Shown piece by piece: positions 13,970 to 29,460 of a stretch of 33,545 nucleotides of DNA (positions are counted from its first letter, which is position 1; each line of letters begins with the position of its first letter). The stretch is from IMG/VR virus record IMGVR_UViG_3300027917_000110, positions 1 through 33,545 of that record. The stretch is one strand, 5' to 3'. The DNA is from a virus. The position numbers were made by a program, and so were the translations under genes. The notes under the pieces were generated by a model. That model saw nothing but the letters and a program-made list of their open reading frames with translations. It did no database searches and was not told the DNA's origin.

Positions 13970-14473
13970 TTAACTATTAACGATTCCTTTATGTGTTAAA
14001 ACTTTAAGCATTTCTTCGTAAAATTGTTTTTCGTCCAATTCCATTTTCATATAGTTGTGTGTGGCACAACATGGCACACAATTTTCCAACGAGTACCCAA
14101 CGTTATTATTAAGCCTATCTATGCCGACATAATCTATGTGTGCGCCACAATAGTAACATGGCTGCTTCCAAAAAGTCATAAATTCATCGAACGAAAGCAC
14201 GAAACTTATGTTTCTTTTTTTGGCATTACTTTTATATGATTTATATTTTCCAACAGGACTTTTATAATATTCTTTCTGATAGTGTTTATTTTTTTCGGCC
14301 CTTTTGGCTCTTGCGGCCTTAACTTTTTCTTTGTTTTTAGCCCTGTACTTTCTGTTATATCTGTTTTTACACTCTTTGCAGTGAGCCCTTGTTCTACACG
14401 CACTGTCTTTGCGCTTCCCAAACTCTGATATGTCTTTTTCTTTTCTGCATTTTCTACACAGTTTTGTTCGCAT
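13970..14473 (-). CDS. Free-standing HNH homing endonuclease
   Basis: A 167-residue protein with an N-terminal zinc finger (Cys6/9 and Cys32/35), a basic linker (40-90), and an HNH core: CYYCG at 106-110, GIDRLNNN at 117-124, ENCVPCCATHN at 130-140. The Asp, Asn and His positions of the motif are present, so it should be active. It sits between two structural genes, and its ATG overlaps the stop of the nozzle gene by TAATG, so it uses the late operon's translation without disrupting it. It probably invaded as a homing gene. An uninvaded relative would have nozzle and ejection genes adjacent. Confidence 0.88.
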   Translation of the reverse strand: MRTKLCRKCRKEKDISEFGKRKDSACRTRAHCKECKNRYNRKYRAKNKEKVKAARAKRAEKNKHYQKEYYKSPVGKYKSYKSNAKKRNISFVLSFDEFMTFWKQPCYYCGAHIDYVGIDRLNNNVGYSLENCVPCCATHNYMKMELDEKQFYEEMLKVLTHKGIVNS

Positions 14474-17400
14474 TATTCGGTTTTTTTATCATCGCCAAGA
14501 CGGTAAGGCCCGACTTTCGTCCCAACTTCGAATGCTATTCCTGCTATTTCAAAAGATGCGCCAGTGCTTGTTCTTGTAGATTCACTCACATGCACTCTAA
14601 CACTGGTGATCTTTTGTTTAGATGTTGGAACTTCTAAAACATATGCTTGATTTTCATACGATGCATCTAACCCTTCTGTATAATATTCCGAAGCGTCAAA
14701 CTCTTTCAAAGTTGTTGCATCATATGTATAAGTATCTGTCCACACAGGATCGAAATTGTATCCTATTTTTACTACGAGTTCATGATCGCTAATGTTTTGG
14801 GCAACGATCATTATTCTTTTAAGTCTTGTAAAACCAGCTATTCCAGAGAAAGAATACCAGCCGGTCTCTATTTTAAGCTCTGGAGCATAACCATCATCTG
14901 GATTGTCAACATAACTAGCAGTATTTTGTTTCCAAATGCTACCGTCGTTTTTCTTGAACATTAGAACGTCTGTATCATCGTAGAATATAATATCCGTTCC
15001 TTGATATTGACTCCAAGTGCTCCACATTCCAAAGTGCCAGTTAAACACAAGAGCATAGCCATCTGCATCGCTATTCATCCAAATTACTTCATTCTGCTCA
15101 TGCATTACAGCACCAGCCGTAACAGTCGAGTGATCATGCCAATGCTGCACAGGGTCTCCAAAAGGCGCTATTTGTAACTGCCTATTAATCAGATAGAAAT
15201 TATCATCTGAGGCAGGAAATACAATTCCTTGAGGAGTTTGTAATATGGCCTTTTGATTGTTACAGCCCACAGTGTTTGATAATAGGCTCGGGTCATAGTA
15301 GTTGTTGCCAGTGCCAAGATTATCATACCCGGCCCCATAAGTCATATAGATTCTATTCTCTTTAAATATTAACAGTCTATCTTGGAATTCGGTTAGCGCC
15401 GTTATGGGGCCGCCTTCAGCGTTACACTCTACAGTTAAATAATCGCTATGCTCGATTCCAAAACCCTTATCGATTGGTTTTGAATATCTGATTAAAACTT
15501 CTGGCCTATCTGCGTCTACAACAAAATGTCTGTTCTGATACAGACACTGCACAGAAAATGGAGGCGGCTGAATATTGTCTAGAATGCCTCCGGTAGTATA
15601 TAGCGTCTCTTGAGATGTCAAGTCGTCGTCTGCAAGATTATCTGCGATACCAACAGACCTCTCGCTTCTGTCGCTGTTGCCAGTTGCACACCTATAATAG
15701 ATTACTCCGTTTCCTGCCGTTCTATACAGAACAACCGTTATGTCGGCACGCTTTGTAAATGTAAGCGTTGGCACGGTTACAATTGTCTGCGTGTTACCAG
15801 TAGATGTCTCTATGGTTGCTGCAGGAGAAGGAGCAGACTGATACCTGTTTCCTTTCCTGTCTGTAAACTCATATACTGCTTTATAAGAATATGTTTTATC
15901 TACATCAAGATTTCCAGAACCATTTAATACTGGCGAAACTTTGTGCGGGTAACAAATAAATGGTTGTTCATATGTTTCTTGGCCATCAAACTCAAACGGC
16001 ATAGAGCCAGGAATAATCAAAACGTCTTCGGTTTCACAAGTTTTTGCATTCCCAGCAATCATAGAAATCCATATCCTAGCCTGTCCAACATATTCTGGTT
16101 GATTATCATATATGGCTTCCGCCTGCAATGCGCCTAACAAGAACCATTCTTGTATTGTCTGTACATTTGTAGGGAAATTTGTATAATAGGCCCTGTTAAT
16201 GAGGAATTTCCCATACATCATGTCGCTGTCTTCAAATATCACGTATGTCCACTGAGATGACACATCTACGCCAGTATGTCCGTTATGCGGAATGAGCAAC
16301 ATATGCATATTTGGGCTGTCATACCAAGGCTTTGAGGCTAATTGGGCTCCCATAAGCAAACTAGAGGCGGTCCCTGCGTCTCCTGTACCACCAGAATCTT
16401 CAAAAGTATTTTGATATACTTCTCTATCCCATGCTGGCGAGCCGACGCCCTGATCTTCAAGCGTCCAGAACTGTTTACTTAGAACAGAATCGATTGCGCA
16501 GCCGGCCATATTTACAACAACCATATCAGTATCAGAAGTGCTATATACAGTATCTTGAGTAATGACGACATTTGCCTCTTCGTCAAAACCAAGAGCATAT
16601 ATTCTATGCAATGGACCAGATTCTTCAGCATATGCCATCATGATGCCAGTATCTGTGGTCTGTTGGTAAATGGCCACTGCATGAGCGTCTACAGTTGTAA
16701 ATGGCTCGTCTACCCACGCACTTTTTGTTGTGGTTGTTTTAAAACATATTAATTGTGGATATCCTGTTTGGTCAATACATGCAATTGCAATCGTTTGTGC
16801 CGTACCACCAAGATGACATATATCTATATCTGCAAGATATGCGGCTGGGACACCCTTAATTGAACCATTTAAAGTTTTAAGCTTTACGGCGCTTCCAATC
16901 GCTCCCGTAGAGGTGTTAACCTCTCTATATACCAAATCTCCGCCACCAGTTGTGCTATCAACATGAATGATATATAATCCGCTGGTCGTCGCGATACATC
17001 TTGGTGGAGAATTAGAATATCCATCAAGATCAGTATAATCTAGCTCTCTATCTGTATTAGAATCCCAAGTTTTTGCATATGCGCCAGAACCAGAAGCATT
17101 GCTGTTCCAAACTGACAGAAAAATGCTGCCTTGAAGAGCAACCTCAACTCCGCTGACCACGGTGTCTGACCTTGAATATATTTGCTCGATTTGCACCGTA
17201 GCATTTCCGATATAATCAATAACATCGAAATCGCTGCCATCGTATACTTTTACTTGGCCGGTGTTTCCATATGCAATGGCAATATCATCATATTGAGTTA
17301 GCCACTCTTCGCTATGAGCACCTATCTCTGTAGTTCCAAATCTTTTAGATATAACGCCAGCATGTTTATATACACCGTCCTCAACTCTTGTAAGGCCCTT

Positions 17401-17478
17401 CGGGCCAAGTTTTGGATCTGTATCTGTATCTAAGCCGCTTGCCAAAGATGCCGGAACTAGAGATTTGTTAATAGGCAT
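14473..17478 (-). CDS. Putative tail nozzle (tubular) protein
   Basis: A 1001-residue protein, beta-rich throughout. The N-terminus reads as usual for this podovirus nozzle/stabilisation family: PINKSLVPASLASGLDTDTDPKLGPKGL followed within 45 residues by KRFGTTEIG. In the middle an Ig-like stretch (KTYSYKAVYEFTDRKGNRYQS) is followed by the family's hallmark segment: QNRHFVVDADRPEV, RYSKPIDKG, ALTEFQDRLLIFKENRIY, TVGCNNQKAILQTPQGIVF. It probably forms the hexameric end of the short tail below the adaptor. Three DGY tripeptides occur. The Shine-Dalgarno GAGAGG is followed by TATAAT before the ATG. The homing gene follows directly. Confidence 0.7.
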   Translation of the reverse strand: MPINKSLVPASLASGLDTDTDPKLGPKGLTRVEDGVYKHAGVISKRFGTTEIGAHSEEWLTQYDDIAIAYGNTGQVKVYDGSDFDVIDYIGNATVQIEQIYSRSDTVVSGVEVALQGSIFLSVWNSNASGSGAYAKTWDSNTDRELDYTDLDGYSNSPPRCIATTSGLYIIHVDSTTGGGDLVYREVNTSTGAIGSAVKLKTLNGSIKGVPAAYLADIDICHLGGTAQTIAIACIDQTGYPQLICFKTTTTKSAWVDEPFTTVDAHAVAIYQQTTDTGIMMAYAEESGPLHRIYALGFDEEANVVITQDTVYSTSDTDMVVVNMAGCAIDSVLSKQFWTLEDQGVGSPAWDREVYQNTFEDSGGTGDAGTASSLLMGAQLASKPWYDSPNMHMLLIPHNGHTGVDVSSQWTYVIFEDSDMMYGKFLINRAYYTNFPTNVQTIQEWFLLGALQAEAIYDNQPEYVGQARIWISMIAGNAKTCETEDVLIIPGSMPFEFDGQETYEQPFICYPHKVSPVLNGSGNLDVDKTYSYKAVYEFTDRKGNRYQSAPSPAATIETSTGNTQTIVTVPTLTFTKRADITVVLYRTAGNGVIYYRCATGNSDRSERSVGIADNLADDDLTSQETLYTTGGILDNIQPPPFSVQCLYQNRHFVVDADRPEVLIRYSKPIDKGFGIEHSDYLTVECNAEGGPITALTEFQDRLLIFKENRIYMTYGAGYDNLGTGNNYYDPSLLSNTVGCNNQKAILQTPQGIVFPASDDNFYLINRQLQIAPFGDPVQHWHDHSTVTAGAVMHEQNEVIWMNSDADGYALVFNWHFGMWSTWSQYQGTDIIFYDDTDVLMFKKNDGSIWKQNTASYVDNPDDGYAPELKIETGWYSFSGIAGFTRLKRIMIVAQNISDHELVVKIGYNFDPVWTDTYTYDATTLKEFDASEYYTEGLDASYENQAYVLEVPTSKQKITSVRVHVSESTRTSTGASFEIAGIAFEVGTKVGPYRLGDDKKTE

Positions 17479-17495
17479 ATATTATACCTCTCCTT

Positions 17496-19850
17496 TTAAT
17501 CTTTGTATTTGGTAATAACCATACCAAGATATCCAACATTAAATGTTGCGCCTGCTCCACCAGCACGCTGTACAACCAAATATCCATCATCACCTGAGGT
17601 TATGTTGTTTAAATAAATTGGGCCTCCTGAAGATGTTCCCTTGAATAGATCGTTAGTGATTCTTGCGTTTGGATAATATACTGTTGAGCCGTTTACCTGG
17701 AAACTAACCAAATAATAACCAGCACTGGGAATGGTGTCGCTAACAAATTGCCAATTTACTATATAATCTCCGTCTTCTTCAAAATGTACATATGTGCTCG
17801 CGGAATCAATATCCATGTTGTATAAATTAGATGGATAACATCCATAAGTTATAGGATACCAAACCCCTTCTGTAGTAAGCGTAAAATCAACAGAGGTGTT
17901 CCATCTTACAACACCATTAGCAGCTGCAGAAAGAGGAACTCCAGGAATTGTCCAATTTCCTGTGCCATCTAGATAATAATACCCATCATTATTTAGTTTT
18001 GGTAGAAGTCCGTGGCGCGACGATGTTGCATCCAAATCTGTATTATCATCTGGAGTTGCTAAATCATCTAACTTGATGGCATCCGATCCTCCAGATTGAT
18101 GAGATGTGTTATGTGCCAGAGGAGTTTGGCTATCTGCAAGTAGCCCGCTTAATCCTGTTACATCTATTTCATCTGCTCCACCATTTTCATGAGTGGAAGC
18201 GTGTGACAATGGCGTTTGGGCGTCTGCAAGCAGGCCGCTCAGCCCAGAAACACTAATCTCGTCTGAACCGCCATCTTGATGTGTTGAGGCGTGTGCCAGA
18301 GGAGTTTGGCTATCTGCAAGTAACCCACTCAATCCTGTGACATCTATCTCGTCAGCATAGCCGTCTTGGTGAGTAACGGCATGAGACAGTGGGGTTTGAG
18401 CATCTGCCAACAGACCACTCAGACCAGAAACATTTATCTCGTCTGAGCCACCGTTTTGATGAGATGTTTTATGAGATTGTAAATTAATCTCTAACTGCTC
18501 GTCGCCGCCAGGGTTTAGAACGGTTACAATAATGCTGTCTCCAGCAACGATTTTTTGTTCCAGGAAACCCCTAGAAGTATCGTCGTCTGAAACATATGTT
18601 TTATAGTCACTTGCCACTACTGGATCCTCCGCTTTAATATGATGCATACTCATATTTAAATTATATATTTCTATATATTTGCTTGAATCTGCGGTTTTGC
18701 CCCAAACCTCAAAATAATCGCCGGACTCACAATCAAAAAAGAATACCTCTGGCAAAAGAGCCGTTGGGTTTGATAGAAACCTATATCTAAGGGTTTCAGT
18801 TAATAGCGTGCCGTTTTTATATATCCCAACTCTATCTGAGGCTCCACCATACATTTGTACGTCTACATTAAAATCCATTTTATATGTGCCGGCAACATTT
18901 ACAGTAATAGAAAAATCATTTGCGTCAACAGACACGTTGCCTGCGCCGTCACTATAGCCGTCCCACGTAGCGCTTACTAGGCTGTTGTTTATCTGTTCCC
19001 ACGTGTCTACAGCAGCAAACGTTCCAGATTTGGGAGTCTGATTTCTGTTAAACTCAACTCTTCCCCATGCAGCGTATCCATCTTGTATGTCTATTTCTGA
19101 AGATACAAAAAGTTCAGACCAGTTACCATAACCATCTAAGAACCTGTCGGCCTCTCCGCTTAATCTTGGCAATAAACCATGTTTAGACGTAGAGGCGTTC
19201 AAATCTGTATTATCGTCGGGCTCAGCCAGATCATCTAGCTTTATTTCATCTGATCCGCCTTCTTGGTGCGTTGATGCGTGTGCATCAAGATTAATTTCTA
19301 TTTCTTCATCTCCACCAGAATTTAAAACATTTAAAAAGATGCCAGTACCTGCCGCAGTTTTTTCTTGTAAATAATCAGCCGTGGTATCGTCAGATGACAC
19401 CTTTACAACGGGATTTCCGCTTTCAGATTGAATAACAAATGGAAATGCGATCCAATTTCTATCTGGTCTTGCCATAAACAGCGAACAGCTTTGCGGCTCA
19501 AGCCTTACTATACCCTCTCCACTTATTGTTGCGTTTGTGTCTGAGGGAACAACAGATACAAGAGATCCTGCACCATATGCATCATCATTTCTGATGATAA
19601 CAACTCTGCCCTGATCTTCTGGAGTTATACGCTGTAACGTTAATATAATTTCTTCGTCTGGGCCTGGCAAACACGTATAGACGCCGCCGGTTTTGGCCAT
19701 TGTGTTTTCTGAGATATTGGTCGTAGGCAAACCAAACGGAATGTCTGCATATTTAGATATTAAGTCGATAGACTTGGAGATACCATCACTAAGATCGACA
19801 AGCTCCTCTCTATCTGATATGACTTTTTTTGTTCTAATTTTACGTGACAT
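17496..19850 (-). CDS. Modular tail fibre with C1q-like tip
   Basis: A 784-residue fibre. Residues 1-140 are paralogous to the N-terminus of the next upstream gene (RKIRTKKVISD, PFG, NDDAYGAGS, VVPSD), and are likely the virion-attachment domain. Next come the VSSDDTTADYL (...) LNSGGDE module, HASTHQEGGSDE and HGLLPRLSG, then a C1q-like domain (about 260-400). A second copy of the module and five HxxxHQ/ExGxxDEI repeats separated by SGLLADxQTPL follow. The second C1q-like head at the C-terminus resembles the end of the 4531-7776 fibre. It is probably a trimeric receptor-binding or spacer fibre. Its ATG overlaps the upstream stop by TAATG. Confidence 0.82.
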   Translation of the reverse strand: MSRKIRTKKVISDREELVDLSDGISKSIDLISKYADIPFGLPTTNISENTMAKTGGVYTCLPGPDEEIILTLQRITPEDQGRVVIIRNDDAYGAGSLVSVVPSDTNATISGEGIVRLEPQSCSLFMARPDRNWIAFPFVIQSESGNPVVKVSSDDTTADYLQEKTAAGTGIFLNVLNSGGDEEIEINLDAHASTHQEGGSDEIKLDDLAEPDDNTDLNASTSKHGLLPRLSGEADRFLDGYGNWSELFVSSEIDIQDGYAAWGRVEFNRNQTPKSGTFAAVDTWEQINNSLVSATWDGYSDGAGNVSVDANDFSITVNVAGTYKMDFNVDVQMYGGASDRVGIYKNGTLLTETLRYRFLSNPTALLPEVFFFDCESGDYFEVWGKTADSSKYIEIYNLNMSMHHIKAEDPVVASDYKTYVSDDDTSRGFLEQKIVAGDSIIVTVLNPGGDEQLEINLQSHKTSHQNGGSDEINVSGLSGLLADAQTPLSHAVTHQDGYADEIDVTGLSGLLADSQTPLAHASTHQDGGSDEISVSGLSGLLADAQTPLSHASTHENGGADEIDVTGLSGLLADSQTPLAHNTSHQSGGSDAIKLDDLATPDDNTDLDATSSRHGLLPKLNNDGYYYLDGTGNWTIPGVPLSAAANGVVRWNTSVDFTLTTEGVWYPITYGCYPSNLYNMDIDSASTYVHFEEDGDYIVNWQFVSDTIPSAGYYLVSFQVNGSTVYYPNARITNDLFKGTSSGGPIYLNNITSGDDGYLVVQRAGGAGATFNVGYLGMVITKYKD

Positions 19851-21079
19851 TAATTTTCCTTTGGGCCGATACGATGTGCTGCAAAACAGATGTAATCAAA
19901 TGCCATCGCTCTTGACCAACAGTTGCCGCAATAAGGCCAATATCCATATGCTTCAAAATAATCTCCAGGGTCGCACTCTTCATAATGACGAATAACAATG
20001 CGGTGTTTGCCTGGATATAGACACGGTATTTTATATTTTGTTTCAGGAATTCGTGTGCCATTTTTATATATTATAATATGTCCAAGCTCTGAACAACTAG
20101 CACCTATCGCACTTATCGTGATGTGCGTGCTTAGTATTGTGTAATATGTTCCATAAGTCTTTGCTGTTATTGTATAGCCGTCTGAGTCCATGTAATATCC
20201 GTCAGAATAATAATCCCACGGCGGAACTTCATAATAAGAATTTGATTCGTCTAGCCTAAACGCAACAGGATCTTCAAGCTCTGTCTCAATAAATGTGTTT
20301 TCTCCAGCTTTTATAAAAGCCCACCCAGTTGTGCTTTGCCACACCGGAGATGACCAATCTCCCAGACCGTCTAAATATTCGTACCCATCATTGCTTAATT
20401 TTGGTAACAAGCCGTGTCTTAATGTTGAAGAATCTAAATCTGTATTGTCGTCTGGCTCCCCAACGTCATCTAGCTTAAAACTGTCAGCACCGCCACTTAC
20501 ATGAGTATATGCATGAGCGCCAAGTGATATTTCTAACTCCTCAGCACGAGATGGATATTTCACACTAACATTTATATTGTCTCCAGCAACAATCTTATTA
20601 ACAAGAAAATCTTCTGTCGTGTCATCAGATGATACCTTAACAAGCGCCGGCAAAAACTTTGAAAACTTCGCGGCAATCCAGTTTCCATCTTCTTTTAATA
20701 TAAACCACGACGACTCTCCTTCTGCCAGGGTCAAATAACCATCGTAATTAATGGTTTTACTATCATCTGCCGGGACAACTTTGACAAATGATCCAGAACC
20801 ATATGCATCATCGTTCTGAACTAATATGTTTTGCCCCACCTTTCCTATATTTGCTTTTTCAAGAGTGATGACAACAGTATTGGCATCCCCCGGCCTACAA
20901 ACATATGTATTTCCTAATAGTGCTGATATATTGTTTGTTACATCAACCACGGCATAACCAAACGGCTTGTCTATCTTATTAGACAAAAAATCTACGGCTT
21001 GTCTTACGCCATCGTTGAAATCTATTATCTCTTCGTTGTCAGATATAACCTTCTTGATCCGAACTTTGCGATCAGCCAT
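19850..21079 (-). CDS. Short tail fibre sharing the attachment domain
   Basis: A 409-residue fibre. The N-terminal 135 residues are paralogous to the 17496-19850 product, then come KVSSDDTTEDFLVNKIVAGD, a GGADSFKLDD repeat and HGLLPKLSNDGYEYLDG. The C-terminal 150 residues form a beta-rich C1q-like head with several Cys and many Tyr (YYSDGYYMDSDGY). With the downstream fibre it forms a pair anchored by the same domain, so they may branch from the same site or compete for it. Four DGY tripeptides occur. It follows the adaptor gene by 6 bases. Confidence 0.8.
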   Translation of the reverse strand: MADRKVRIKKVISDNEEIIDFNDGVRQAVDFLSNKIDKPFGYAVVDVTNNISALLGNTYVCRPGDANTVVITLEKANIGKVGQNILVQNDDAYGSGSFVKVVPADDSKTINYDGYLTLAEGESSWFILKEDGNWIAAKFSKFLPALVKVSSDDTTEDFLVNKIVAGDNINVSVKYPSRAEELEISLGAHAYTHVSGGADSFKLDDVGEPDDNTDLDSSTLRHGLLPKLSNDGYEYLDGLGDWSSPVWQSTTGWAFIKAGENTFIETELEDPVAFRLDESNSYYEVPPWDYYSDGYYMDSDGYTITAKTYGTYYTILSTHITISAIGASCSELGHIIIYKNGTRIPETKYKIPCLYPGKHRIVIRHYEECDPGDYFEAYGYWPYCGNCWSRAMAFDYICFAAHRIGPKEN

Positions 21080-21085
21080 TGTTTA

Positions 21086-24000
21086 TTACCACCAGTGATA
21101 TTTGGATGCTCTGTACATATCCACAACGGTTTTTGGTTTTCCTACATCTTGCTCTGCCGAACGTATGATTCTTTGTTCCACCTCTCTTAGCTGTGCTATA
21201 AATGTTGAAGGATCTTCTCGTTTAACGGCACAGGCTTTAATTGCCGTAGAAAGAATAACATGTTCCTGCCAATGATTTATAAATCTAAATGTATCTGCTG
21301 GGTCATCTAATGCCGTTGGCAGAGGAATATACGTTAAACGAACCGTACCGCTCCACGTAGGCGTTGGATGAAACTCTATTTGCTGCCCAACAATCAAATA
21401 TCTCGTGGTCCACTTATGCTGAGAAGAACAAGCATAATCATATCTTTCATCAAAATCAAACCTATCCAATACCGCATATCCGTCTTGGTTTGATGGATCT
21501 TCAACCGCCACTTGCTTCAGTTTGTAGAAATCGCTAGGAAGATCATAACCCTTTGTCCCAGAAACTACAGATATGTCACCATTGTTAAGGAAATAACTAT
21601 CCTCATGTCTGGTTACAAGATCGTAGAAAGCCGCTATTGAAGAGTTAAGCCATTCTGTTAGCTGTGAGTCGTCAAAATCGTCTTTGCTCCAACCACCACG
21701 TCCTCTGACTGCTAATTGTAGGTTTTGAAGCGTCTCAGATGTAGACGGCTTTGTTTGCTCCGCCAGATTTCTCTTGGCAAAGCTGGTTATTCTTTGCTCT
21801 GCCTTCTGTAGCTGAGCCATATAGAGCTGAGGATCTGTACCAACGGCCCCTGCACACTTCATGGCGCAATCAAGTATCACATACTCTTGCCAGTTGTTAT
21901 ATAGAGATACGGAATCAGAAGGATCAACAAGGTTTGTATAAACTGGTAGATATTCTAGGCGAACTGTGCCGCTCCAGGTAGGAGTTGGGTGTAAATGTAG
22001 AGTGTTTCCTCTGATATGATACCTTGTATTAGCTTTTGTGCCAACATATGAGCTATCATAGCGTTCTGTCCAGTTGAAATGATTCATGGTGCTATATTCG
22101 TCTGCTAATGAAGAATCATATGCGTCTACTCCAACTACTTTAAAGAAATCGCTTGGCAAATCGTATTCTCTGGTGCCAGAACTAACTGCCACATCCTCAT
22201 ATGTAAGGAAATATGAATTATCTACTTCGCAAATAGTATCTCTTAATGCTGAGATGCTGCTATTAATCCAGCCCGTTAGCTGACTATCATTTATTTGCTC
22301 TTTTGTCCAACCGCCCCTTGCTCTAATTGCTAATTGTAAGTTTCTTAATGTACCTTCGGTACTTGGAGTGGTTTTATCAACAAGATTCTGTAACGCAAAA
22401 GCTTTTATTCTTTCTTCACACTTTTGCATCTGCGCCATATATACTTGAGGATCTTTGCCCGTTGCGGCGCAAGCTTTAACACAAGCGTTTAGAACGACAT
22501 GTTCCTGCCAATTATTATATAGAGATACCGTGTCCGTTGGGTTAACAACGTTTGTATATACAGGAATATATTCAACTCTTACAACCCCAGACCACGTTGG
22601 TGTTGGGTGCAGATATAAATTATCACCTCTTACATGATATCTGGTAGTTGCTTTTTCGCTGGTAAATACATCATATCGTTCTTCCCAGTTAAAATGATTT
22701 AGTGCATAGTAACCATCTGCCAACGCGGCATCATATGCGTCTACTCCAACTACTTTGAAAAAATCTGCCGGCAGTGCATATTCTCTGGTTCCAGAGCTAA
22801 CGGCAACATCGTCGTATTCAACAAAATATGAAGGATCAATAGCACAGATTATATCTCTAAGCTCCGAGACAGATGAGTTAATCCAATCGGTTAGCTGACT
22901 ATCTCTTATGTCTGTACGCAGCCAGTTGCCACGATTTCTAACCGCAAGCTGCAGATCTTGAAGAGTTCCAGATGTGGAAGAAGCTTTCTGCTCATGGATA
23001 TCTTGCACTGCAAAACTAGTGATTCTTTGCTCTGCTCTTTGCAGTTGTGTCAAATAGTTAGCTGGGTCAAGGCCCGTAGCAATACTAGCTTTAACACACA
23101 CATCTAGCATAATCCATTCATGCCAGTGATTGAAGAGGTCAAAGGTATCTGTTGGGGACGAGAGAGCAGTGTATCTTGGGATATATTCTAAGCGTACGAT
23201 TGCCGACCAATTTGGGGTAGGATGAAAATGAATCTGGCTGCCTCGGATATGATATCTTGTGTTGCTTTGCGTAGCGGTATAAGTATCATCGTATCTTTCT
23301 GTCCAGTTAAATTGCTTCATTGTGGCGTAGCCGTCTGTCGCTCCAGAATCTTTTACATCTACACCTATTAATTTATAGAAATCAGATGGAAGGTTGTATG
23401 CTCTTGTACCTGAAGCAACCGAGATGTCTTCATATTGAACAAAATAGGAAGGGTCGCTTTGACAGACTAGATCTCTAAGAGCTGCTATGCTCCCATTAAT
23501 CCACTCAGTAAGCTGATTGTCAGAAAGATCTTCTCTTTTCCATGGGCCTCGGTTTCTTACGGCAAACTGCAAATCTCTTAGAGTTTCTGCAATTGGAGAG
23601 GTTTTTGGTTTTACAATATTATGAACGCCAGTTGCTACCAAAAGCTTTTCGGCTTCTGCTTTTTGAGAAACATAAACGGCAGGGTCTGTCTCTTCTTTTG
23701 CACAACATTTAATGGCTACATCACAGATAATCCATTCTTCGCCAATGCCATTTATAGTATCGAAACTATCCGAATTGCTTGAAAGATCTTCAAACACCGG
23801 AACATATTCAACTCTGACCGTACCGGTCCATGCCGGTTCCGGCTGGAACTCTATGACATAGTTGCCTTCCCTAGAATATTCGGCTGCAGACGTAACTCCA
23901 TGAACCATATAGCGAGTAGACTCTTTCGCTGATGTGAAAAAGTCATCATATCTTTCCTCCCAATTAAATGATTCTAATACGCTATATCCGTCTGCCGTAG

Positions 24001-24253
24001 TATCTGCCACGGCCACGCCGCTTAGCCTATAAAAATCTGTTGGAAGGTCATATTCCTTGGTTCCAGAAGAAACAGAAATATCTTTACGTTTTAAATATCT
24101 CCACGGATCTACTTCGGACATTAGCGAATAGAACTTGAAACATGCATCATTGATGAAATTCGTTAATTGAGCATCTGTGATGTAAGCCGAATTCCATTCG
24201 CCTCGTTCCCTAATCAAATCGCGCAAAGTTGAAAGAGTAACCAATCTGGCCAT
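21086..24253 (-). CDS. Five-domain fused head-tail adaptor-like protein
   Basis: A 1055-residue chain made of five homologous domains: residues 1-223, 224-429, 430-634, 635-840 and 841-1055. Each has TLxxLxxxxRxRGxW, DxQLTxWIN, YF or WRY, SGTxxYxLPxDFYKL, FNWxERYD, TRYxIRG, HPTPxWSGxVRxEYIP and NxWQEHVxL (...) DPxxYxxQ. One such unit of about 205 residues resembles the phage adaptor (gp4/SU10-adaptor-like), a protein that normally forms a ring of single-domain subunits under the portal. Genome position between capsid and tail genes agrees. Five units in one chain are unusual, and the linkers between units are short. Four of five domains carry DGY at the same place with different codons. A structured element precedes the gene, and its Shine-Dalgarno is GAGG. 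Confidence 0.8.
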   Translation of the reverse strand: MARLVTLSTLRDLIRERGEWNSAYITDAQLTNFINDACFKFYSLMSEVDPWRYLKRKDISVSSGTKEYDLPTDFYRLSGVAVADTTADGYSVLESFNWEERYDDFFTSAKESTRYMVHGVTSAAEYSREGNYVIEFQPEPAWTGTVRVEYVPVFEDLSSNSDSFDTINGIGEEWIICDVAIKCCAKEETDPAVYVSQKAEAEKLLVATGVHNIVKPKTSPIAETLRDLQFAVRNRGPWKREDLSDNQLTEWINGSIAALRDLVCQSDPSYFVQYEDISVASGTRAYNLPSDFYKLIGVDVKDSGATDGYATMKQFNWTERYDDTYTATQSNTRYHIRGSQIHFHPTPNWSAIVRLEYIPRYTALSSPTDTFDLFNHWHEWIMLDVCVKASIATGLDPANYLTQLQRAEQRITSFAVQDIHEQKASSTSGTLQDLQLAVRNRGNWLRTDIRDSQLTDWINSSVSELRDIICAIDPSYFVEYDDVAVSSGTREYALPADFFKVVGVDAYDAALADGYYALNHFNWEERYDVFTSEKATTRYHVRGDNLYLHPTPTWSGVVRVEYIPVYTNVVNPTDTVSLYNNWQEHVVLNACVKACAATGKDPQVYMAQMQKCEERIKAFALQNLVDKTTPSTEGTLRNLQLAIRARGGWTKEQINDSQLTGWINSSISALRDTICEVDNSYFLTYEDVAVSSGTREYDLPSDFFKVVGVDAYDSSLADEYSTMNHFNWTERYDSSYVGTKANTRYHIRGNTLHLHPTPTWSGTVRLEYLPVYTNLVDPSDSVSLYNNWQEYVILDCAMKCAGAVGTDPQLYMAQLQKAEQRITSFAKRNLAEQTKPSTSETLQNLQLAVRGRGGWSKDDFDDSQLTEWLNSSIAAFYDLVTRHEDSYFLNNGDISVVSGTKGYDLPSDFYKLKQVAVEDPSNQDGYAVLDRFDFDERYDYACSSQHKWTTRYLIVGQQIEFHPTPTWSGTVRLTYIPLPTALDDPADTFRFINHWQEHVILSTAIKACAVKREDPSTFIAQLREVEQRIIRSAEQDVGKPKTVVDMYRASKYHWW

Positions 24254-27513: not shown

Positions 27514-29460
27514 TTATCTTGGCAAACCTCCTGCTCCTCCCATAAGCTCAGATGGCACTGGTGGAGGTCCAGTCGGACCGGCTTCTCCTGGAGCCATTGG
27601 GGTCTCCATTGGGGCCTCCATTGGAGCTTCGCCGCCTATGCCAGGAACTCCAGCTAATGGAGATGGAACTTCTCTGCCAGGTAGCGTTGGCCCAAGGGCC
27701 TCGGCCCCACCTGGCATCGTCATCTCTGTCTCTGGAGGCGGAGGATTCAATAAATCATTTGCTTCAGACAGCCATCTTAGAACAAGGTCCAATCTCTCTG
27801 CAGACTCTCCTCTAAGCTTGGCTCTTAAATAGTAATGTGTTCCTAATTTAATTCCTAATGCTAAATTCTGATATGGAAGCGGTTCTACATATTCTCCTTT
27901 AGCCAACATATGTTCCATCGTAGCTTCTATATCGTCCATTGCAGAATTCATTAAAGAATTATACTTTTCCAAGTCTGGGAAATCTAATAGGTTCCCAGCG
28001 ATGTCTGGGCCAATTAAACCGGCCTTCATCATATCTATAACGGTTTCAAGCTTTCCTGCTGGGGTATTGGGTAGAGATGAAGCGGGATATACTTTAAGAA
28101 TGAATTGTTCTTCATCCATCTTTACATCCGACCATTTAATCCTTTCAACAAAGCTTTTGCCATCATATTTAATGCTAAGCTCTTCTCCGCTTTCTTCTAG
28201 TCGCCTTGCGCATCCCATTATTTTCTTGGCGAGACCAACAAACATATCTTCAAATGCTCTTGAAACTGTAGAGAATCTTTGGGACTCTACATCCTGTAGC
28301 GTTCTAAGTGCTACGCCAGATTCGATTCCCGCTGGCTTTGTAGATGTGGCAGATAGCTGAGAAACTCCGGCGACTTCAAAAGCTCTACGATATAGAGTTT
28401 CAAGCTGTTGAAATATCTGTGGGTTAACGGCAGGCGGAACCTCTATTCTTGGGGGAATGTTGCCGCTATATTCTATCATTCTAGCCATCTCGTTTGACAA
28501 CAGCTGGTCATCAGATATATCTGAACCTCTTGGTTTCAAAATATATGGAACAGATAAAAGATGCATGTTGTCTCTTACCTTGCTCAACAGATTGTTAATC
28601 TCTCTTTGAATGCCCTCAAGCTCTTCTGCTAGCCCAACGCCATGCCACCCCATGACATCTTTGGACCATCTAATCACTACAAATGGGAACGCTTCTTCGT
28701 CCCACTCTTCATCTAGAAGTATACCACTTTCTATACAAATAACATGCCTACCTTTTGTTTCTCCACACGAAAGGTGCCAAGCCTCATATACTTCTATCAT
28801 ATCCCTAGAGGCTGAGAAATGATTGCCAGTGAAAAGCTTTGCTCCTCTGATAATCTGCTCATGCTCTGGAAACATCGAGATTAGCGCTTCTCTTGAGACA
28901 AACTCTTTCTGAAACATTGATCTTGGTTCGCCATTAAGAGCCGAGTTGTCGTCAACCACGATCCTAGACGGGTGAACCTTCTCGATCTTAATGACTCCAT
29001 CAATTTCAAACACCTTCAAAATACCAATACCATATATACACGCATCTCTTAATGCATCTGTAGCTCTTGCATGAGCGTCAGTGTTGTAGAGGATTCCATC
29101 TACAAACTTCTCTAGGTCCCGGGCCCTCTGTTGCTGCTGCTCGCTTCCTTCTTCTGTAAGGAATCTTGGTTTTGGTTTATTCATTGTAATCTTGCTTACT
29201 ACAGTATCTGTAGCAGATTTAATTACATTATATGTAATGGGCCAGAACATTTCTCCGGTTTCTATATTTATATGCGATACGAACCAATCTCCTGGCTCGA
29301 ATCCCTTCACTTTCTTGGCTTTATAAAGGCTAGCAAATCTAATGTTATCTGTAGTTCTGCCCTCTTGCTCCGTGATGATGCTGTCAACGGTAGAGATTAG
29401 GTCATTGCAAACGCTACCCTCTTCCGCTTTGTGCCAGTATCTAGCCGAGTATTTTGCCAT
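27514..29460 (-). CDS. Portal protein
   Basis: A 648-residue podovirus-type portal, the ring at the special capsid vertex through which DNA is pumped. Supporting features are the position directly after the large terminase, an N-terminal helical clip/wing region with ITYNVIKSATDTVVSKI, and DALRDACIYGIGILKV followed by VHPSRIVVDD, a conserved portal pattern. It also has EEAFPFVVIRWSKDVMGWHGVGLAEELEGIQREINNLLSK and the GVSQLSA (...) AGIESGVALRTLQDVES segment that lines the tunnel. The last 80 residues are Pro/Gly/Met-rich, a low-complexity tail absent from many relatives. AGGGAG lies 10 bases before the ATG. Confidence 0.9.
   Translation of the reverse strand: MAKYSARYWHKAEEGSVCNDLISTVDSIITEQEGRTTDNIRFASLYKAKKVKGFEPGDWFVSHINIETGEMFWPITYNVIKSATDTVVSKITMNKPKPRFLTEEGSEQQQQRARDLEKFVDGILYNTDAHARATDALRDACIYGIGILKVFEIDGVIKIEKVHPSRIVVDDNSALNGEPRSMFQKEFVSREALISMFPEHEQIIRGAKLFTGNHFSASRDMIEVYEAWHLSCGETKGRHVICIESGILLDEEWDEEAFPFVVIRWSKDVMGWHGVGLAEELEGIQREINNLLSKVRDNMHLLSVPYILKPRGSDISDDQLLSNEMARMIEYSGNIPPRIEVPPAVNPQIFQQLETLYRRAFEVAGVSQLSATSTKPAGIESGVALRTLQDVESQRFSTVSRAFEDMFVGLAKKIMGCARRLEESGEELSIKYDGKSFVERIKWSDVKMDEEQFILKVYPASSLPNTPAGKLETVIDMMKAGLIGPDIAGNLLDFPDLEKYNSLMNSAMDDIEATMEHMLAKGEYVEPLPYQNLALGIKLGTHYYLRAKLRGESAERLDLVLRWLSEANDLLNPPPPETEMTMPGGAEALGPTLPGREVPSPLAGVPGIGGEAPMEAPMETPMAPGEAGPTGPPPVPSELMGGAGGLPR

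Follow-up and report, generated by a model that had tools for sequence, protein, structure and literature searches.

A tandem SU10-type adaptor with five units in one chain, and a proposed multi-ring neck in an uncultured short-tailed phage

The adaptor gene and its neighbourhood

The DNA analysed here—the window, meaning the whole stretch of 33,545 bases—is a virus record from an uncultured short-tailed phage. Its gene order is that of such phages, with terminase, a P22/SU10-type portal protein (27514..29460, minus strand; the head-end partner of the adaptor), a probable scaffold, an SU10-type capsid protein, a small virion protein, the adaptor, fibre-like genes and a probable nozzle protein of about 1000 residues. 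Both the capsid and the portal proteins match SU10/P22-type Pfam models. The adaptor gene (21086..24253, minus strand) encodes 1055 amino acids in a reading frame, 24253-21086, that is free of internal stops. Pfam model PF24175 (SU10_adaptor) matched five stretches of this protein (E = 2.8e-72 over its whole length), and each of the five placements individually exceeded the family cut-off of 27 bits, at 47-63 bits. An earlier note on this DNA had read five adaptor units in one polypeptide without an internal stop, and our analysis confirms that reading; the unit limits given there lie near those reported here, and the adaptor identity and intactness of all five units are upheld by Pfam, by the fold and by the uninterrupted frame. 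The usual architecture of the family is one domain per chain and one dodecameric ring, whereas here a single chain holds five units. The protein is thus a variant architecture of the SU10_adaptor family, in which a single domain is no condition of membership.

All five units lie on the minus strand. Unit 1 (residues 1-218; 23600..24253) is of a 'first' type according to identities, phylogeny and the residue test described below. Units 2 (residues 219-424; 22982..23599) and 3 (residues 425-629; 22367..22981) were assigned to a 'middle' type from Pfam, identities and phylogeny, as was unit 4 (residues 630-835; 21749..22366), to which unit 3 is nearest at 65% identity. Unit 5 (residues 836-1055; 21089..21748) is of a 'last' type, as judged from its AlphaFold2 model, the tree and the residue test. 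In pairwise comparison the units share 39-65% identity at the protein level and 48-63% at the DNA level, and the longest exact DNA run common to them is at most 27 bases, so that neither a recent duplication nor an assembly error accounts for them. A search for internal translation starts found no methionine within 20 residues of any unit boundary.

Structure prediction, proposed in the earlier note as a check, returned an adaptor-like fold. The AlphaFold2 model of unit 5, built from 74 aligned sequences, had a pLDDT of 92.1 and a pTM of 0.85, and showed the helix bundle and beta domain of the adaptor fold with a Z score of about 14 against SU10 adaptor chains. Its best matches in the PDB were adaptor chains of short-tailed phages, including that of SU10 (7z4b; Foldseek E = 5.8e-8; Z = 13.6-13.7), and it also matched the ring proteins of phage phiCrAss001 (7qog, 7qoi and 7qoj; E = 2e-6 to 8e-5; Z about 10). 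The adaptors T7 gp11 and KP32 TTPA (6r21 and 5mu4) share the general fold, with Z scores of about 9-10, but are single-domain, single-ring proteins and more remote. Moreover, the model of the full chain (18 sequences) comprised five repeats of one fold series, with pLDDT values mostly of 70-90 within units and below 50 in the linkers of about 12-16 residues between them. Units 2, 3, 4 and 5 were each the top-matching stretch for some adaptor structure; the assignment of unit 1 draws on its Pfam match, the same series of secondary structures and weaker matches to neck proteins. The pTM of this monomer model was 0.30, so that the positions of the units relative to one another are not predicted by it.

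Directly downstream of the adaptor lies a gene for a fibre-like protein of 409 residues (19850..21079, minus strand), the N-terminal domain of which is common to the next gene and to the eight-unit relative introduced below. That next gene (17496..19850, minus strand) encodes a 784-residue fibre-like protein that sequence comparison identifies as a paralogue. Beyond both, at 14473..17478 on the minus strand, is the conserved protein of about 1000 residues; its place in the gene order, its size and its conservation lead us to propose it as the nozzle or muzzle. Pfam gave no match for this candidate and PHROGs none that was informative, with a weak virion-protein match obtained solely for its version in the relative L094, and a search of the PDB with the nozzle profile gave a single, irrelevant match (E = 0.58). 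As a separate observation, the tripeptide DGY occurs 47 times, against about 2 expected, in the minus-strand virion genes scanned (window positions 4531-25008). It is written with many different codons, which points to a signal at the protein level, and is enriched in the probable outer tail and fibre proteins while being absent from the portal, capsid, scaffold, terminase and probable internal proteins.

Relatives with one to eight units

The search for other phages with tandem adaptors that the earlier note had suggested did return such proteins, with three and with eight units. A scan of IMG/VR recovered an eight-unit relative of 1707 residues (L002), two three-unit relatives of 638 residues from two metagenomes (L003 and L004) and an identical copy of the five-unit gene of the window (L001). 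A scan with the capsid protein added a divergent three-unit protein (L094; 652 residues from the start methionine) and a single-unit relative (L095), both from phages whose capsid proteins share about 49% identity with that of the window. Across relatives with the same gene order, the number of units is therefore one (L095), three (L003, L004 and L094), five (the window and L001) or eight (L002). After additional searches with profiles for the adaptor, the portal and the nozzle, the collection comprised 185 distinct adaptor ORFs. Of these, 175 had a single unit, and the remainder consisted of the tandem proteins, fragments of the window and partial ORFs; the tandem form is hence rare within the reach of sequence searches. 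At none of the loci examined did we find a second adaptor ORF. Likewise, tblastn searches of annotated phages with the window protein and with one single-unit relative gave no match, nor did sequence searches of the PDB with the whole chain and the unit profile. Genome contigs yielded nothing in a search with the adaptor profile, and one remote locus, devoid of an adaptor, with the portal profile.

Structural searches reached further. In a Foldseek search with the five-unit model, three BFVD entries—A0A516M5L4 (1139 residues), A0A516L4P3 (583 residues) and A0A6J5LSM0 (512 residues)—aligned over most of the chain with E values from 1e-26 to 1e-13, the first of them across 1102 columns (E = 1e-26). 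They are uncharacterised viral proteins with about 15% identity to the window protein, and the modelled similarity makes it probable that these, too, are tandem adaptors, from other lineages. Fusion of another kind was observed in a 1222-residue ORF (L151:1837-5502), where one C-terminal adaptor domain follows about 990 residues of repetitive, fibre-like sequence. Some single-unit adaptors were also extended at the N-terminus by about 100 residues (L034:4734-5747, L065, L221, L223, L228, L229, L232 and L234).

Our maximum-likelihood tree placed the tandem units together with L095 in one clade (support 100/100). Within it, the last units of the window, L002 and L003 cluster (98/88), as do the middle units (100/97), with first units lying outside these groups; the units of L094 partly cluster among themselves. 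A topology with all first units, or all last units, in a single clade that includes those of L094 gave AU p values of 0.21-0.29, so that the data are compatible with a single origin of the tandem array as well as with several. The window and L002 share 73% identity in their first units and 71% in their last, and the added copies are of the middle type, comprising units 2-4 of the window and most of units 2-7 of L002, of which unit 7 sits on a long branch and is placed with uncertainty. Judging from these sequence relationships, copies were inserted in the middle of the chain between the window and L002. For orthologous units of these two proteins dN was 0.21-0.26 with dS saturated.

The genes flanking the adaptor differ as well among these phages. 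The gene after it encodes about 135-140 residues in phages with one or three units (L095:8283-8687 and L003:9525-9947), 409 and 784 residues in the two genes of the window (17496-21079), and 1190 residues in the eight-unit phage (L002:13115-16687), with weak N-terminal similarity. Fibre length may track neck length. The small protein encoded between capsid and adaptor is present in two paralogous copies in L003 (6464-7395) and in one copy in the window, L002, L094 and L095.

Residues set apart in the first and last units

We scored, for each tandem unit, the retention of 86 alignment columns that are conserved in single-unit adaptors; the test covers 19 units of four distinct tandem proteins, two of which (those of the window and L002) are close to each other. 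The majority of the core columns were retained throughout, in every unit. Two sets of columns, however, departed from this pattern. Six (columns 19, 24 and 175-178 in the numbering of unit 5, corresponding to D/E, an aromatic residue and K-E-E-S/T) persisted in each of the four first units, while most other units had lost them; in the window, unit 1 alone retains E19, Y24 and K186-E187-E188-T189. Four further columns (203, 208, 210 and 220) showed the corresponding pattern for the last units, being retained in each of the four and lost from most of the remaining units. They form the C-terminal tail, which in the window spans residues 1035-1055 (QDVGKPKTVVDMYRASKYHWW; 21089..21151, minus strand) and is confined to the last unit. 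A simple tail motif was found in every last unit (4/4) and in none of the others (0/15), and none of the 19 units carried both residue sets. When one unit per protein was chosen in all 360 possible ways, the choice of all first units ranked first (six columns) and that of all last units second (four columns), with the next best choice reaching two. The first and last units thus conserve different residues and are specialised by position, like the end rings of crassviruses, and the earlier note is incorrect in assigning the full motif set to every domain.

Relatedness enters into this comparison, since the first units partly share descent and the residue test is to that extent not independent of it. 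In the case of L094, the first and second units cluster in the tree, yet they differ in the residue test. Additionally, most of the first-unit residues are missing from L095, the nearest of the single-unit relatives, in which the D at position 19 alone agrees; single-unit adaptors therefore do not all share the first-unit set.

Known structures suggest what the two sets may do. In phage SU10, the adaptor grips the portal through a C-terminal embracing loop, and its helix bundle is the part to which the nozzle protein binds (PMC9509320). The C-terminal tail of the last unit is, on sequence grounds, the counterpart of this portal-binding loop. According to the helix assignment in the unit 5 model, the first-unit columns fall within or adjoin two inter-helix loops of the bundle, and E19 and Y24 lie in the stretch of the chain matching residues 15-26 of the distal, muzzle-end ring protein of phiCrAss001, which contact the muzzle (PMC10172136). 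Because the helix bundle meets the nozzle in SU10 and residues 15-26 meet the muzzle in phiCrAss001, we read the first-unit residues as nozzle-facing. The first unit would then have kept the nozzle-facing residues, the last unit the portal-facing tail, and the middle units neither.

A proposed stack of rings and its alternatives

We consider it highly probable that the tandem protein builds a tail barrel in which single chains contribute to several coaxial rings, with the first unit at the nozzle and the last at the portal. Since the portal is 12-fold, twelve would be the natural number of chains beneath it, each oriented with its N-terminus (unit 1) towards the nozzle and its C-terminus (unit 5) towards the portal, and the five units of each chain would feed five coaxially stacked rings. 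A split of residue sets between end units is what would be expected if each unit occupied its own ring of the stack: the portal-gripping tail would be needed by the last unit only and the nozzle-binding tip by the first only, which could account for the loss of those residues in the other units. Middle units would act as spacer rings, their duplication lengthening the neck, and the unit count of the chain probably determines the number of stacked rings and, hence, neck length. In the crassvirus barrel, five rings occupy about 23 nm (PMC10172136), that is, about 4.6 nm per ring; on this scale, three, five and eight units would correspond to necks of about 14, 23 and 37 nm, and the linkers, at roughly 13-16 residues, could in principle bridge the distance of one ring if extended. 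The stacked rings proposed in the earlier note gain support from the position-specific residues and from the three- and eight-unit relatives, while the twelve copies and the stacking itself are what we infer.

Fused ring subunits occur elsewhere in biology, and one chain could instead replace several subunits of a single pseudo-symmetric ring, with fewer chains and an unchanged ring count. Twelve is divisible by three units, as this arrangement would require, but 5 and 8 also occur and are not divisors of 12; moreover, each unit would contact the portal as well as the nozzle and need both residue sets, a combination that no unit keeps, leaving this arrangement a very slim chance. A chain could also contribute one unit to a ring and string the others outward as docking sites for fibres or receptors. 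SU10 adaptors do bear a fibre-dock domain (PMC9509320), the fibre-like proteins are longer in phages with five or eight units than in those with one or three, and the linkers of the full-chain model are flexible. The ring unit would, however, need both portal tail and nozzle tip, which are carried by separate units in each of the four proteins, and the core motifs of the middle units persist under constraint (dN is 0.24-0.26 with dS saturated for units 2 and 3 of the window and L002), so that outward docking seems unlikely to us.

Cleavage of a polyprotein at the linkers would release separate ring proteins that then stack, a design known from crassviruses, and linkers of this length and low pLDDT could offer sites for it. 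In the part of the window gene set that was scanned, though, we noticed no candidate protease, and adaptors are encoded singly elsewhere in the family, which would leave cleavage with no evident advantage; we regard it as very unlikely. Finally, metagenome assembly can misjoin tandem repeats, and the window and L001 possibly stem from one sample. The divergence of the units at the DNA level, the lack of long exact runs and the different arrays in other metagenomes—the three-unit form in two of them—led us to reject an assembly artefact for the window, which the earlier note had named as a finding that would overturn its reading. A decaying duplication conflicts with the absence of stops and with dN well below saturated dS, and the probability of either origin is negligible.

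The stack that we favour has a close precedent. In phiCrAss001, five dodecameric rings specialised by position (R1-R5, formed by gp43, gp40, gp35 and gp34) are stacked between portal and muzzle and are encoded by four separate ring genes; in other podoviruses a single such ring had been seen, according to the same study (PMC10172136). The "new way to make a tail" envisaged in the earlier note was therefore partly anticipated. The window protein resembles that barrel in having several adaptor-fold units that match its ring proteins in structure, yet the phiCrAss001 rings are products of separate paralogous genes and 15-31% identical, whereas a single gene of the window places all units in one chain, with three, five or eight units in the lineage. 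Stacking has been seen in the virion of phiCrAss001, while the window phage is known from its genes. A further difference is the capsid protein of the window, which Pfam assigns to the SU10 type. With the SU10 adaptor gp11 (PF24175; PDB 7z47 and 7z4b) the window protein shares Pfam family, fold, C-terminal tail and position in the gene order, but gp11 has one domain and forms one dodecameric ring, against five domains here. A survey of the open-access literature on tandem or fused adaptors found no covalently fused version with a variable number of units. Stacked adaptor rings being already known, the novelty lies in covalent fusion within one chain and in the variable unit number.

Crassviruses provide a case in which the neck of a short-tailed phage is lengthened by stacking rings, and a different lineage seems to arrive at a longer neck by fusing the rings and changing the number of units. 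We think it reasonably likely that neck length is governed here by the count of fused domains, with twelve chains running from portal to nozzle and duplication of middle units altering the length, and with no need for a tape-measure protein or for additional ring genes. If true, this would be a simple and countable form of length control in a phage tail, and the natural versions with one, three, five and eight units allow a direct comparison. The tandem proteins also show the two faces of one adaptor divided between the end units of a chain.
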